A stretch of 22,549 bases of DNA from positions 1 to 22,549 of IMG/VR virus record IMGVR_UViG_3300027754_000470; one strand, written 5' to 3'. Made by a program: the position numbers and the translations under genes. Positions within the stretch are counted from its first letter, which is position 1. Every line of letters begins with the position of its first letter. The DNA comes from a virus. Shown here one piece after another: positions 18,304-22,011 of the stretch. The notes below the pieces were generated by a model, which was not told the DNA's origin, did no database searches, and was given only the letters and a program-made list of their open reading frames with translations.

Positions 18304-18414
18304 CTAGTCAACTGCAATTCTATCAGCATGATCATCACAATAATAGATCTTTTTGCCATCCATAGTTACTTTAGATGTATATGAGAGATTATCACAGTAT
18401 GTACAGAATTTCAT
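18304..18414 (-). CDS. CxxC...CxxH zinc-ribbon microprotein (36 aa)
   Basis: MKFCTYCDNL has C4 and C7, and YYCDDHADR has C26 and H29, a compact zinc-ribbon pattern. The ATG overlaps the stop of the HNH gene by four bases (ATGA), so the two are co-translated. It is related in layout to the 43-aa protein downstream. Function unknown; such mini-ribbons often bind nucleic acid or partner proteins. Confidence 0.6.
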   Translation of the reverse strand: MKFCTYCDNLSYTSKVTMDGKKIYYCDDHADRIAVD

Positions 18415-18695
18415 TTTTCCTTCTTCCCGTTTTTTCTCATATATGTTCTTGCTCTATGACAGTTTGAACAAACTATCTCACACTTGGCTATTTCTTCATC
18501 CAGTCGTTTCTTAGATAACGTGTTGATGAGTTCTGCCACATTTGCTTGCTTAGTTCCACGCACATGATCAAAATCCATCATGTAGTACGGATAAGATATC
18601 TTACAATCCATACATGGGTTTTTTTCTTTTAAATCTTTTAAATATTGTGCCAGATGTTCTTTTTGTTTCTTGATTGATATCTTCTCTGGAGACAT
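18411..18695 (-). CDS. Small HNH endonuclease (94 aa)
   Basis: After a Lys-rich helix (1-25), C28-x2-C31 and C76-x2-C79 form the structural zinc site. MMDFDHVRG provides D43-H44, the metal-finger histidine, and SNCHRART gives N78 and H80. This is a complete HNH core of the phage type seen with FDHVRG...CANCHRxRT. It cuts DNA or acts as a nickase; roles in phages include terminase help, host DNA attack or homing. It is free-standing and not in an intron here. The start at 18693-18695 lacks a ribosome site but follows TATAAT by 6 bp. Confidence 0.85.
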   Translation of the reverse strand: MSPEKISIKKQKEHLAQYLKDLKEKNPCMDCKISYPYYMMDFDHVRGTKQANVAELINTLSKKRLDEEIAKCEIVCSNCHRARTYMRKNGKKEK

Positions 18696-19285: not shown

Positions 19286-19403
19286 TAGATCAAAGTCACT
19301 TTTGAGAAAATGTTAATATATTTTTAATTTGTATGATACACACATTTATAAATGTCCGTTTTGCCCGATACCGCGCCCATGACCCCCTGACCTTGAGCGT
19401 GAG

Positions 19404-19419
19404 TGTGACCCTTATCACA
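19404..19419. promoter_or_regulatory. CRP/GlxR-type operator, copy 1
   Basis: TGTGA-CCCTTA-TCACA is a perfect match to the TGTGA-N6-TCACA consensus of CRP and of the actinobacterial homologue GlxR. The centre is about 75 bp upstream of the start predicted for the promoter at 19458-19490. Confidence 0.7.
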
Positions 19420-19457
19420 TAAATAGTTTAACAATACTCATGAGTAACCCCCCTATT

Positions 19458-19490
19458 TGTCAGTCCCCCCTGCTAGGATAAGAGTATAAA
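19458..19490 (+). promoter_or_regulatory. TGTCAG-type early promoter, copy 1
   Basis: TGTCAG (19458-19463), 10 bp (TCCCCCCTGC), TAGGAT (19474-19479), then GTATAAAGAAAA. It has the same order and spacing as copy 2 at 20700. No -35 box is present at 17 bp. It drives the 62-aa gene. Confidence 0.6.
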
Positions 19491-19494
19491 GAAA

Positions 19495-19513
19495 ATCAAG
19501 AAAGGTTCTTGAT
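19495..19513 (+). promoter_or_regulatory. Leader hairpin ATCAAGAA-AGG-TTCTTGAT
   Basis: A perfect 8-bp stem with a 3-nt loop lies between the promoter and the AAAGGA ribosome site of the 62-aa gene. A differently sequenced hairpin (AGAGG...CCTCT, 20741-20759) holds the same place before the 55-aa gene at 20777. Confidence 0.6.
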
Positions 19514-19530
19514 AAAGAAAGGAAAACAAA

Positions 19531-19719
19531 ATGTTTTCATTGAATTACACAGTAGGTTTATCATCTAGCACCTGCCTAGTCCCTAGCGAGGAATACGCTA
19601 ACGAGTTTCTAGACCTAGTCGCTAAGACTAGAGTCATAGACACAGTAACTCTAACCGAGTTACCTAACTACAAGCCTAGCAAGCGTGTAGTGTTCGCTAC
19701 TACTAGAAGTTGGGAGTGA
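19531..19719 (+). CDS. Unknown early protein (62 aa)
   Basis: MFSLNYTVGLSSSTCLVPSEE continues into an amphipathic helix (YANEFLDLVAKTRV), a strand (IDTVTLTEL) and an Arg/Lys-rich end. It is single-gene-sized with its own promoter, CRP/GlxR-type site, leader hairpin and AAAGGA ribosome site. The stop codon lies inside a GTGAG-GTAA-CTCAC hairpin. Family not recognised. An early host-takeover role is plausible from its position only. Confidence 0.6.
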   Translation: MFSLNYTVGLSSSTCLVPSEEYANEFLDLVAKTRVIDTVTLTELPNYKPSKRVVFATTRSWE

Positions 19720-19740
19720 GGTAACTCACACTCAACCTAA

Positions 19741-19780
19741 CGGCGTGTCGCTTGATAATGTCACCCCTATACGCTACAAT
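19741..19780 (+). promoter_or_regulatory. CGGCGTGTCG element plus TGTCAC-type promoter, copy 4
   Basis: CGGCGTGTCG (19741-19750) is followed after one base by TTGATA (19752-19757), a 17-bp spacer containing TGTCAC (19759-19764), and TACAAT (19775-19780); TGTCAC is 10 bp from TACAAT. TTCCTACTATAA follows, as in copy 3. This copy has both a -35 and the TGTCAC element. Confidence 0.65.
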
Positions 19781-19814
19781 TCCTACTATAACTACTAACG
19801 AAAGGAGTCACACA

Positions 19815-19982
19815 ATGACTCAACCTAAACTCTCTCCTCGCTTAGAGGAGATACGCATAGCGCAACAGGCTCGCTATGCTGAACAGCGTGAAGCCTTTGC
19901 TAATCGTGAATTACTTAACACACTTAATCGTGCTAATCAAACTCTAAATAATCTATACCTACTAACGAAAGAAGAAAACTAA
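19815..19982 (+). CDS. Helical microprotein of unknown function (55 aa)
   Basis: The start at 19815 is chosen because AAAGGAG is 8 bp upstream and the promoter at 19752-19780 lies between it and the upstream ATGs. The protein is nearly all helix, with heptad-like spacing in LEEIRIAQQARYAEQREAF and LLNTLNRANQTLNNLYLL, so it may form a coiled coil. It opens a five-gene set joined by TAATG overlaps up to 20545. Function unknown. Confidence 0.65.
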   Translation: MTQPKLSPRLEEIRIAQQARYAEQREAFANRELLNTLNRANQTLNNLYLLTKEEN

Positions 19983-20134
19983 TGACTATCACTTACTCAC
20001 TATGGGACGGCGCACAATTACTAGGCGCAGGGCTTACCGCTAATAGCGCAGACGAAATGAATAAGGTTGTAGCAGACCTACAAAAAGTTTCCACTAATGT
20101 AGTGGCACACATGCGAAAGGTAACACAAAACTAA
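19982..20134 (+). CDS. Unknown microprotein (50 aa)
   Basis: MTITYSLWDGAQLLGAGLTA forms a beta hairpin, then a helix NSADEMNKVVADLQKV and a basic end. The start shares one base with the preceding stop (TAATG) and its own stop shares one with the next start, so translation is coupled. Not recognised. Confidence 0.6.
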   Translation: MTITYSLWDGAQLLGAGLTANSADEMNKVVADLQKVSTNVVAHMRKVTQN

Positions 20135-20298
20135 TGATGACTAAATGGGACACTATCCAATTAGATGTAGCAGACCAATACATCTACATAGATGAAGAAG
20201 AAGCCTATAATAAGGCACTAGCAGAAGGCTTAGAAGTAAGCACACAATATGATGAAGATGAAATGTCTAAGTCCCTTACACTAGATTGGAATGACTAA
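20134..20298 (+). CDS. Acidic microprotein (54 aa)
   Basis: Very acidic: IDEEEAYNKALAEGLEVS and YDEDEM. The strand DVADQYIYID precedes the helix. Such charge suggests DNA mimicry or protein binding, which is speculation. Overlaps both neighbours by one base (TAATG). The ATG ATG pair leaves one codon of uncertainty in the start. Confidence 0.6.
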   Translation: MMTKWDTIQLDVADQYIYIDEEEAYNKALAEGLEVSTQYDEDEMSKSLTLDWND

Positions 20299-20435
20299 TG
20301 AAAATAGAATTAGATAGCTTTGGATTTATGTTTAATACAGAATGGGCTTATGTATCCCTATCGTGGGAATTACTAATTGCTAGCGTTTTGCTAGGTGTTG
20401 CTTATAAGTTTTATAAAATAAGAAAGGCTAAGTAA
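20298..20435 (+). CDS. Single-span membrane microprotein (45 aa)
   Basis: An N-terminal soluble part (MKIELDSFGFMFNTEWAYV) is followed by a hydrophobic segment LSWELLIASVLLGVAYKFY (about 21-39) and a basic end (KIRKAK), so the C-terminus should be cytoplasmic. Coupled by TAATG to both neighbours. Unknown role. Confidence 0.6.
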   Translation: MKIELDSFGFMFNTEWAYVSLSWELLIASVLLGVAYKFYKIRKAK

Positions 20436-20545
20436 TGACTACTAGTCGCATACTAACTACACTAGTACAAGTAGGTATCGGTATTCCCGCCCTACTTATG
20501 CTACGCCTAGTAATTCGTGATCTAATTCACAATAAATTAAACTAG
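20435..20545 (+). CDS. Hydrophobic microprotein (36 aa)
   Basis: One membrane-length helix, LTTLVQVGIGIPALLMLRLVI (about 7-27), is followed by RDLIHNKLN. It is last in the TAATG-linked operon and follows another membrane microprotein, so the two may act together at the membrane. Unknown. Confidence 0.55.
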   Translation: MTTSRILTTLVQVGIGIPALLMLRLVIRDLIHNKLN

Positions 20546-20550
20546 GATAA

Positions 20551-20591
20551 CGGCGTGTCGCCTTGACAAGGGCGGCATCTGCCCCTATCTT
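20551..20591 (+). promoter_or_regulatory. CGGCGTGTCG element with TTGACA-N17-TATCTT promoter
   Basis: CGGCGTGTCG (20551-20560), CC, TTGACA (20563-20568), 17 bp, TATCTT (20586-20591). The transcript would begin with the DnaA-box hairpin (20596-20638). A second promoter for the same gene lies at 20700. Confidence 0.55.
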
Positions 20592-20600
20592 TTGTGGGCG

Positions 20601-20632
20601 TTATCCACAGGCTATTAAGGATCTGTGGATAA
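20601..20632. promoter_or_regulatory. Two perfect DnaA boxes in inverted orientation
   Basis: TTATCCACA (20601-20609, plus) and its reverse complement TGTGGATAA (20624-20632) are separated by 14 bp. Together with CAG/CTG and outer GGGC (20596-20599) and GCCC (20635-20638) they form a long hairpin. Both boxes match the strongest bacterial DnaA consensus. The A-rich sequence with a CRP/GlxR-type site follows. No T-tract, so a terminator is unlikely. Confidence 0.6.
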
Positions 20633-20644
20633 GTGCCCTGAAAA

Positions 20645-20660
20645 TGTGAGATTAATCACA
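20645..20660. promoter_or_regulatory. CRP/GlxR-type operator, copy 2
   Basis: TGTGA-GATTAA-TCACA is a perfect consensus match. The centre is about 75 bp upstream of the start predicted for the promoter at 20700-20732. Confidence 0.7.
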
Positions 20661-20672
20661 AAAAAAAGATTT

Positions 20673-20684
20673 CCGACACGCCCG
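20673..20684 (-). repeat. Inverted copy of the CGGGCGTGTCG element
   Basis: CCGACACGCCCG reads CGGGCGTGTCGG on the minus strand, matching 21456-21466 and, with one fewer G, the other copies. It is the only minus-strand copy seen and lies between the CRP/GlxR-type site and the promoter. Confidence 0.55.
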
Positions 20685-20699
20685 AAAAACAGGTCAAAA

Positions 20700-20759
20700 T
20701 GTCAGACCCCCCTGCTATAATTCCAGTATAAAGAAAAACAAGAGGTAAAGAAATCCTCT
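20700..20759 (+). promoter_or_regulatory. TGTCAG-type promoter, copy 2, with leader hairpin
   Basis: TGTCAG (20700-20705), 10 bp (ACCCCCCTGC), TATAAT (20716-20721), then GTATAAAGAAAA and a hairpin AGAGG...CCTCT (20741-20759). This parallels copy 1 closely in order and spacing. The AAAGGA ribosome site follows. Confidence 0.65.
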
Positions 20760-20776
20760 AAAGAAAGGAATTCAAA

Positions 20777-20944
20777 ATGAATTCAATGTTCGAAAAGTTC
20801 GCTACTGTTAGCGATTATCCTAGAGGTTTAATGAACCTCTGCCCTTGTGGACAGGTTGTCCTCGCTCCTGCTAAGTATCACGCAGGTTTCGCTTGGTGGG
20901 AAAATCCCAACAAGTGTAAAGAATTATTTGAGGGGGTCAAGTAA
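20777..20944 (+). CDS. Cys-rich microprotein (55 aa), possible zinc ribbon
   Basis: LCPCGQVVLAP has C22 and C24, then H35 (KYHAGF) and C47 (NKCKEL), a possible CxC...H...C metal site. AAAGGA lies 8 bp before the ATG. It has a CRP/GlxR-type site, two predicted promoters and a leader hairpin upstream. The stop shares one base with the next start (TAATG). Function unknown. Confidence 0.65.
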   Translation: MNSMFEKFATVSDYPRGLMNLCPCGQVVLAPAKYHAGFAWWENPNKCKELFEGVK

Positions 20945-21117
20945 TGACTATCTCAACAATGTGCAAAGAGCACAACCCAATGAAATCTGCTATCTCAGAA
21001 ATTGGAGATGAGCAATTTACTTTCTGTCAAGATTGTGAAAATAACATTGAACGTTACTACTATGATGGTGACCCTGAGCAACTTCCTATGTGGACAGATT
21101 GGTATGTGTCTAAATGA
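20944..21117 (+). CDS. CxxH...CxxC zinc-ribbon-like microprotein (57 aa)
   Basis: C7-x2-H10 (MCKEHNP) and C28-x2-C31 (FCQDCENN) form a likely four-ligand zinc site, followed by an aromatic acidic tail (YYYDGDPEQLPMWTDWY). It overlaps the next ATG by four bases (ATGA). It resembles the 36-aa and 43-aa ribbons of the leftward group only in metal spacing. Unknown role. Confidence 0.65.
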   Translation: MTISTMCKEHNPMKSAISEIGDEQFTFCQDCENNIERYYYDGDPEQLPMWTDWYVSK

Positions 21118-21308
21118 AATCACAATTTGAATTAGATTTAGAAATCAAAGAAAGTTTTATTGATTTATTAAATGATGTTTATCCTACTGTAAAAATTGGT
21201 TACTCTACTTTTACTCCCGCCGAAATTTTAGAATGTTGCGACCCAATCGCATTTTCTATCGGTTTAATTGAACATGAAGATTATTTAGCAGAAATGGAAA
21301 ATGAATAA
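21114..21308 (+). CDS. Acidic helical phage protein (64 aa)
   Basis: MKSQFELDLEIKESFIDLLNDVYPTVKIGYSTFTPAEILECCDPIAF has alternating helices with an acidic end (EHEDYLAEMENE). The motif AEILECCDPIAF followed by a short helix is familiar from small conserved phage proteins without function. Coupled upstream by ATGA and downstream by TAATG. Confidence 0.65.
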   Translation: MKSQFELDLEIKESFIDLLNDVYPTVKIGYSTFTPAEILECCDPIAFSIGLIEHEDYLAEMENE

Positions 21309-21403
21309 TGGAATTTTATGGATTTGAATCTGCAATTGAATTGGATCATCTTACCGATGAGCAAATTTTACAATTAGAAAAAATATTTGAAGATTATGAA
21401 TAA
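21308..21403 (+). CDS. 31-aa acidic micro-ORF
   Basis: MEFYGFESAIELDHLTDEQI plus a helix ending FEDYE. It shares one base with the preceding stop (TAATG) and ends just before the CGGCGTGTCG cluster. Coupling and amino-acid composition support it; too short to classify. Confidence 0.5.
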   Translation: MEFYGFESAIELDHLTDEQILQLEKIFEDYE

Positions 21404-21407
21404 ATAA

Positions 21408-21517
21408 CGGCGTGTCGGCTTGACAAAAGCTGATGCGCCCACAAGGGTGCGGCGTCGGGCGTGTCGTTACTTGATCGTTATAAAATTCCCTGAAATTTAC
21501 GGCGTGTCGATTTGACA
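21408..21517 (+). repeat. Cluster of three CGG(G)CGTGTCG elements
   Basis: Copies at 21408-21417, 21456-21466 and 21500-21509. The first and third are followed after two bases by TTGACA (21420-21425, 21512-21517), the second after four by TTGATC. TGTCG-N4-GACA makes a small inverted repeat in the copies with TTGACA. I see no matching -10 boxes for the first and third, so these TTGACA sequences may be part of a protein site rather than promoters. Confidence 0.6.
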
Positions 21518-21536
21518 GACAAAACGGACATTTGCG

Positions 21537-21552
21537 TGTGACTTTTATCACA
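21537..21552. promoter_or_regulatory. CRP/GlxR-type operator, copy 3
   Basis: TGTGA-CTTTTA-TCACA is a perfect consensus match. The centre is about 85 bp upstream of the predicted start of the 21601 promoter, about ten bases (one turn) further than in copies 1 and 2. Confidence 0.7.
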
Positions 21553-21600: not shown

Positions 21601-21622
21601 TGTCAGCGGGTTCGTGTATAAT
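21601..21622 (+). promoter_or_regulatory. TGTCAG-type promoter, copy 3
   Basis: TGTCAG (21601-21606), 10 bp, TATAAT (21617-21622), then TCCATTATAACC. The -35 region (GTGAAA) is poor. The downstream AACGAAAG leader is shared with copies 4 and 5. Confidence 0.65.
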
Positions 21623-21653: not shown

Positions 21654-21881
21654 ATGTCAGCAAATGTCTATACTATCGAGGATTTACTTATCGGTAAAAA
21701 CTATCGCTCTCGCTCAGTAGAGGGAGAAATTATCTCAGCAGAAAAGCACCCTGCTTGTGTTCACTATGACGGCGCGGAAGCGTATCTTGTAGAGGTTCGC
21801 CCTGCTTATTCAACGACTAGCGGAAAATCACGCTGGTTCGGAAATAGTGTTTATCGCACTCTAGCCGTAAAGGTAGGTTAA
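21654..21881 (+). CDS. Unknown early protein (75 aa)
   Basis: MSANVYTIEDLLIGKNYRSR... has the look of a small beta domain: EGEIISAEKHP, AYLVEVRPAYST and SVYRTLAVKV are successive strands, giving an SH3-like or OB-like impression without a clear family match. AAGGAAAG precedes the ATG. It is the first gene after a regulatory region with three CGGCGTGTCG elements and a CRP/GlxR-type site. Confidence 0.65.
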   Translation: MSANVYTIEDLLIGKNYRSRSVEGEIISAEKHPACVHYDGAEAYLVEVRPAYSTTSGKSRWFGNSVYRTLAVKVG

Positions 21882-21888
21882 TAATAAA

Positions 21889-22011
21889 ATGAACCTAGAC
21901 GAATTCAAAAAACACGTTATTGCACAACGTGAGGAAAGCAAGGCGAAAGCCTTGTCAGTCCTATCTGCTACAATTACAATTCAACCAAACGAAAGGGAAA
22001 ACCTAAAATGA
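21889..22011 (+). CDS. 40-aa helical micro-ORF carrying a promoter within it
   Basis: MNLDEFKKHVIAQREESKAKAL reads as a charged helix. The stop overlaps the next ATG (ATGA). The ribosome site is weak. The TGTCAG promoter copy 5 (21953-21974) and the AACGAAAGGG leader occupy its 3' half, so either the protein tolerates a promoter inside its gene or the frame is chance. The good N-terminus and ATGA coupling favour a real gene. Confidence 0.45.
   Translation: MNLDEFKKHVIAQREESKAKALSVLSATITIQPNERENLK
21953..21974 (+). promoter_or_regulatory. TGTCAG-type promoter, copy 5
   Basis: TGTCAG (21953-21958), 10 bp, TACAAT (21969-21974), followed by CAACCAAACGAAAGGG, very close to the copy 3 leader. No CRP/GlxR-type site is upstream. 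It drives the genes from 22008 on. Confidence 0.6.

Follow-up and report, generated by a model that had tools for sequence, protein, structure and literature searches.

A putative compound promoter of CRP/GlxR-type operators and PafBC-type cores in an environmental group of actinophages

Which regulators would control a block of small phage genes that carry a bacterial type of operator in front of their promoters? The question is raised by the IMG/VR virus record IMGVR_UViG_3300027754_000470, of which positions 1 to 22,549 (22.5 kb) were analyzed as a whole and are here called the window. Its genes include tail, ribonucleotide reductase and glycosyltransferase genes, and the reductase has its best matches in Streptomyces phages, which by gene content mark the window as actinophage DNA. 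A first-pass annotation, made from the sequence alone, had noted copies of the palindrome TGTGA-N6-TCACA in front of promoters and had suggested control by the cyclic AMP (cAMP) receptor protein CRP/GlxR of the host, or by a phage-encoded homologue. The reading we favor, with a probability of about 0.72, is that host CRP/GlxR would activate PafBC-type phage promoters from class-I positions, with two host regulators acting at one compound promoter.

Operators, cores and their spacing

The palindrome of the window is the GlxR consensus, TGTGA-N6-TCACA; making a natural GlxR site perfect has been reported to increase both binding and expression (PMC7999487). Three exact copies are present against a chance expectation of 0.06, and in 100 shuffled sequences the number never reached three. 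A pattern search placed them exactly where the first-pass annotation had them (operators 1, 3 and 4 in Table 1) and nowhere else in the window, and its gaps from each palindrome to the following TGTCAG were reproduced on re-measurement. When two mismatches were allowed, the number of matches in the window equaled background.

Behind each exact site, the TGTCAG element opens a longer core, TGTCAG-N10-TAnnnT. The published PafBC motif is TGTCGG-N10-TA-N3-T; it also tolerates TGTCAG and, in Mycobacterium tuberculosis, TGTCAC (PMC8151990). Since the core matches this motif, the promoters are by sequence PafBC-type, and TGTCRG (or TGTCAC)-N10-TAnnnT is the motif of mycobacterial DNA-damage promoters. 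The earlier description of promoters without a good -35 box therefore stands for the classical element, whereas TGTCAG had gone unrecognized as a ‘-26’ motif of the PafBC type. A further unit, consisting of a degenerate operator with one mismatch and its own core (operator 2 and core 2), had been missed. Its counterparts in two related loci (L005 and L020) are perfect in both parts, so the window has four units, not three. With transcription assumed to start 7 nt past the -10 element, the four sites are predicted to be centered at about -65, -75, -75 and -85.

To follow the unit beyond the window, 79 related loci (1.25 Mb) were gathered through the 75-amino-acid protein encoded downstream of the last unit, independently of any motif. 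In them the palindrome occurs 359 times (718 hits, as both strands were counted), whereas the reversed control gave 2 and versions with N5 or N7 gave none; the core motif occurs 733 times, compared with 16 for its reverse. Site and core formed 287 pairs within 150 bp. Among the pair controls, the N5 and N7 versions, all reversed or scrambled sites and the reversed core gave none, and an N8 version gave 1. The palindrome was present in 40 of 40 records tested, at 1 to 11 copies per record, and thus passed the test of conservation in related phages by which the first-pass annotation had said its proposal could fail. In the records with sites listed, the copies are confined to one stretch of less than ~ 11 kb, even in contigs longer than 100 kb. 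At least 120 stretches of IMG/VR have the compound unit, i.e., palindrome plus core, whereas its reversed control gave 3. Hundreds of related contigs of environmental actinophages carry it, and at least 74 gene families, mostly of small genes, lie downstream of it. Bacterial and archaeal genomes (257 Gb, including 85,000 bacterial genomes) gave 12 units in unrelated taxa, which is about chance level (~ 30 by our own estimate), and a bacterial origin of the unit was rejected on this count. Being enriched in IMG/VR and at chance level in bacterial genomes, the compound unit is a phage feature.

The distance between site and core is strongly structured. Among the matches listed, 383 site-core pairs free of near-duplicates show peaks at 18, 28, 38, 48(-49), 59 and 70 bp, a step of ~ 10.4 bp or one turn of B-DNA. 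The intervals between the main peaks are almost empty, apart from a smaller class at 33/34 bp and a thin scatter at ~ 62-67 bp. Near-duplicates were removed by shared 6-mers, which leaves some relatedness in the set of spacers. For the loci gathered without the motif, the phase concentration was 0.64, whereas 2,000 random sets reached 0.31 at most, and the same peaks were obtained with one-mismatch sites, a class that had not been used in finding the loci. For 32 non-redundant promoters of the gene for the 75-amino-acid protein, the nearest site is mostly at 28, 37-40 or 47-49 bp. Single families among the 74 occupy several whole-turn positions, and one family of 46 members has spacers of 18, 28, 38, 48 and 59 bp. 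The one-turn difference first seen among the sites of the window is thus found as whole-turn phasing throughout the relatives, an upstream placement as in class-I CRP promoters, the 33/34-bp class excepted. An activator held upstream on a fixed face of the helix and touching the polymerase through a flexible tether should give such a pattern.

Candidate regulators and alternative readings

We infer the identity of the binding proteins from established consensus motifs. The core, often with an extended -10 element, would be read by the host RNA polymerase carrying its housekeeping sigma factor, with PafBC of the host as activator. When activated by single-stranded DNA, PafBC inserts between DNA and sigma domain 4, so that the housekeeping holoenzyme uses ‘-26’ promoters (PMC11804915), and the same insertion is envisaged at the phage motif. 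A host CRP/GlxR dimer, presumably bound to cAMP, would occupy the palindrome farther upstream, where positions one helical turn apart suggest one preferred face of the helix. Judging by this spacing, polymerase would most likely be recruited in a class-I-like manner through its flexibly tethered alpha C-terminal domain. Each promoter would serve a short operon in which small genes predominate, probably genes of host takeover expressed early in infection; early timing is suggested because the open reading frames (ORFs) are small and because of their position and synteny with the phages PinkiePie and Grayson. With CRP/GlxR and PafBC at one promoter, expression would depend on both the cAMP state of the host and single-stranded DNA or damage. 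A broader proposal is that this actinophage group has evolved a standard promoter module joining the cAMP (CRP/GlxR) and single-stranded DNA (PafBC) signals with AND-like logic, so that expression is tuned to the energy state and the damage or replication status of the host; we offer it tentatively, at somewhat less than even odds.

Both regulators are found in actinomycetes. A PafC domain was detected in 383 of 395 actinomycete genomes, a figure that scores the PafC half and covers actinomycetes at large. The PafBC motif precedes recA in at least 11 small actinomycete genomes. In five small actinomycete genomes of one group, a carD-like gene has the motif 24 bp ahead of it. WYL domains were sought in 25 phage records, with positive controls found, and gave no hit, so that phage-encoded WYL/PafBC proteins were set aside.

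The core might nevertheless work without PafBC: CRP would then activate on its own, TGTCRG would be read by a phage sigma factor, a WhiB-type protein or sigma-A alone with the extended -10 element, and the likeness to PafBC promoters would be coincidental or ancestral. WhiB proteins, products of an actinobacterial gene, are encoded by 17 of 25 longer relatives, and the extended -10 TG found in 67-80% of the cores is able to bypass a -35 element. Against this, the full six-base, ten-base-spaced motif fits the PafBC definition down to its tolerated AG and AC variants, the motif before recA in small actinomycetes is identical, and almost all actinomycetes have PafC. We therefore regard a PafBC-independent core as unlikely, while giving it more weight than the other alternatives below.

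For the upstream site, small genomes of actinomycetes, as candidate hosts, were surveyed, and 42 of 43 encode CRP as a protein of ~ 230 amino acids. Among solved structures its nearest relative is M. tuberculosis Crp (3D0S, 3I54), and its recognition helix, GASRETVNKALADF, is identical to that of 3D0S. No cyclic-nucleotide-binding domain was present in 74 distinct phage records, some possibly incomplete, in which positive controls were found. The alternative of a phage-encoded CRP/GlxR homologue, left open by the first-pass annotation, was dropped on this ground, and control by the host protein is supported by the excess of palindromes over controls and by the phased spacers, as far as sequence can tell.

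Alternatively, the palindrome could be a repressor operator, bound by a phage protein other than CRP or by host CRP acting negatively, as part of an immunity or timing switch. The grouping of its copies in one region of each phage recalls multi-operator repressor systems. Repressor operators usually overlap the core, though, whereas these sites lie mostly 17-71 bp upstream and never over it, in phase across six turns, as tethered activation predicts; a half-site spacing of exactly N6, not N5 or N7, is moreover that of the GlxR consensus. Repression thus appears improbable, and slightly more so than a core independent of PafBC.

A third alternative starts from an inverted pair of perfect DnaA boxes just upstream of operator 3 (Table 1), which possibly marks a phage origin or a DnaA-controlled promoter; such a pair is found near a CRP-type site in five further loci. 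A chief role in replication, in which CRP or another factor would cooperate with DnaA at a phage origin while promoter association is secondary, is very improbable, because a phased core lies within 70 bp of most sites (125 of 214) and the sites precede 74 gene families. In its favor, DnaA boxes number 277 against 13 in controls, and 120 lie no farther than 100 bp from a CRP-type site, often as an inverted pair just ahead of it.

Several observations weigh against activation by host CRP/GlxR at PafBC-type promoters. The small actinomycete chromosomes examined showed no enrichment of the palindrome, whether one mismatch was allowed or none. Should these organisms be the hosts, the phages carry far more sites than their hosts do. 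Either the hosts are other bacteria, or the host regulon makes do with few or imperfect sites, whereas those of the phages are near-ideal. In 26 of the 383 pairs (~ 7%) the spacer measures 33 or 34 bp, which puts site and core half a turn off the preferred phase. Some pairs of this class have a second, abutting site at the in-phase distance of 49 bp, and others have no second in-phase site. The predicted centers at -65, -75 and -85 lie ~ 3 bp upstream of the Escherichia coli class-I optima, an offset that may come from uncertainty in the start site or from PafBC geometry. Finally, the data are compatible with repression as well as with activation, and we infer the latter.

The environmental lineage that carries the unit looks freshwater, and we conjecture that its hosts are Nanopelagicales or similar bacteria. 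No Planktophila phage was among the matches listed.

Features and repeats of the region

The coordinates of the units and adjoining features are collected in Table 1. When eight proteins encoded downstream of units were compared with Pfam, DUF932 was the sole domain recognized. In related loci, a DUF932 protein ranks among the products most often encoded downstream of the compound unit, with 64 members, mostly at a 38-bp spacer. A search of the region against Rfam for structured RNA gave no match.

Table 1. Promoter elements, ORFs and other features of the window
Feature	Position	Strand	Description
HNH endonuclease-like small ORF	18411-18695	-	Adjoins regulatory region
CRP/GlxR-type operator 1	19404-19419	+	TGTGACCCTTATCACA; TGTCAG 38 bp downstream
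PafBC-type core 1	19458-19479	+	TGTCAG-N10-TAGGAT; motif per PMC8151990
ORF behind promoter 1	19531-19719	+	62 amino acids; without known domain
Operator 2, degenerate	19715-19730	+	AGTGAGGTAACTCACA; AGTGA-N6-TCACA, 1 mismatch; core 2 28 bp downstream
PafBC-type core 2	19759-19780	+	TGTCAC-N10-TACAAT
ORF behind promoter 2	19815-19982	+	55 amino acids
Inverted pair of perfect DnaA boxes	20601-20632		TTATCCACA-N14-TGTGGATAA; operator 3 12 bp downstream
CRP/GlxR-type operator 3	20645-20660	+	TGTGAGATTAATCACA; TGTCAG 39 bp downstream
PafBC-type core 3	20700-20721	+	TGTCAG-N10-TATAAT; extended -10 (TGC)
ORF behind promoter 3	20777-20944	+	55 amino acids; cysteine-containing
CRP/GlxR-type operator 4	21537-21552	+	TGTGACTTTTATCACA; TGTCAG 48 bp downstream
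PafBC-type core 4	21601-21622	+	TGTCAG-N10-TATAAT
ORF behind promoter 4	21654-21881	+	75 amino acids; widespread marker gene, query for relatives
PafBC-type core without CRP-type site	21953-21974	+	TGTCAG-N10-TACAAT; no site with 0-2 mismatches in the 130 bp searched upstream

Two further elements are repeated in the region. The sequence GGCGTGTCG is found at 19742, 20552, 20674 (minus strand), 21409, 21458 and 21501 of the window, and in the relatives there are 309 copies against 4 in controls. It often takes the form GGCGTGTCG-NN-TTGACA, which makes a TGTC-N5-GACA palindrome; GACAC on its opposite strand is presumably the WhiA core, which would fit the WhiB genes of the phages. The other element, AAATGTCCGTTTTG or ATGTCCGAWTT, lies at ~ 19352-19366 and 21522-21536. 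ATGTCCGAWTT was counted 170 times in the relatives against 1 control, and in many of them it is located between the CRP-type site and the core.

Comparison with known systems

The gene order of the window recalls that of cultured phages. In the Stanwilliamsviridae (Streptomyces phage PinkiePie) and in Rhodococcus phage Grayson, a glycosyltransferase gene likewise stands beside the ribonucleotide reductase gene, together with a diverging block of small genes and a WhiB gene. The whole PinkiePie genome and the first 50 kb of Grayson contain neither a CRP-type palindrome nor an excess of PafBC motifs, so that inheritance of the motifs from known Stanwilliamsviridae-like phages was rejected. With both motifs missing from the sequence covered in these cultured relatives, the environmental lineage either acquired the module or is the only one to have it.

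Each half of the unit has a bacterial counterpart. The operator is identical in consensus to that of the Corynebacterium glutamicum GlxR regulon and of M. tuberculosis Crp, whose recognition helix the CRPs of small actinomycetes have in common, but here it is phage promoters that are targeted, and perfect sites are scarce in the small actinomycete chromosomes. The core is the same TGTCRG-N10-TAnnnT as in the mycobacterial PafBC-dependent (RecA-NDp) DNA-damage promoters, such as that before recA. The phage version differs in having a CRP operator added to it and in preceding small genes, mostly without annotated function, rather than repair genes.

The closest parallel in architecture is the class-I CRP/CAP promoter of the E. 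coli lac type, in which the site is centered at -61.5 and further sites are found upstream by one-turn steps. The two are alike in the upstream TGTGA-N6-TCACA, in the one-turn steps and in a weak or missing -35 element; the phage units differ from it in their PafBC-type core, their phage location, their six successive turns and their additional half-turn class. In the open-licence literature, we found no report of CRP/GlxR or PafBC promoters, alone or combined, as a standard phage design. Class-I activation by CRP and sigma adaptation by PafBC are each known, while the compound unit, its restriction to phages and its phasing over many turns appear to be new. If the proposed reading is true, infection by a large group of uncultivated actinophages would be tied to both cAMP and DNA-damage signaling of the host, which is a testable prediction for hosts whose regulation is little known, and sigma adaptation by PafBC assisted by CRP would be a new mode of activation. 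Phasing across six turns in front of 74 gene families provides an unusually clear natural experiment on the positions permitted to an upstream activator.

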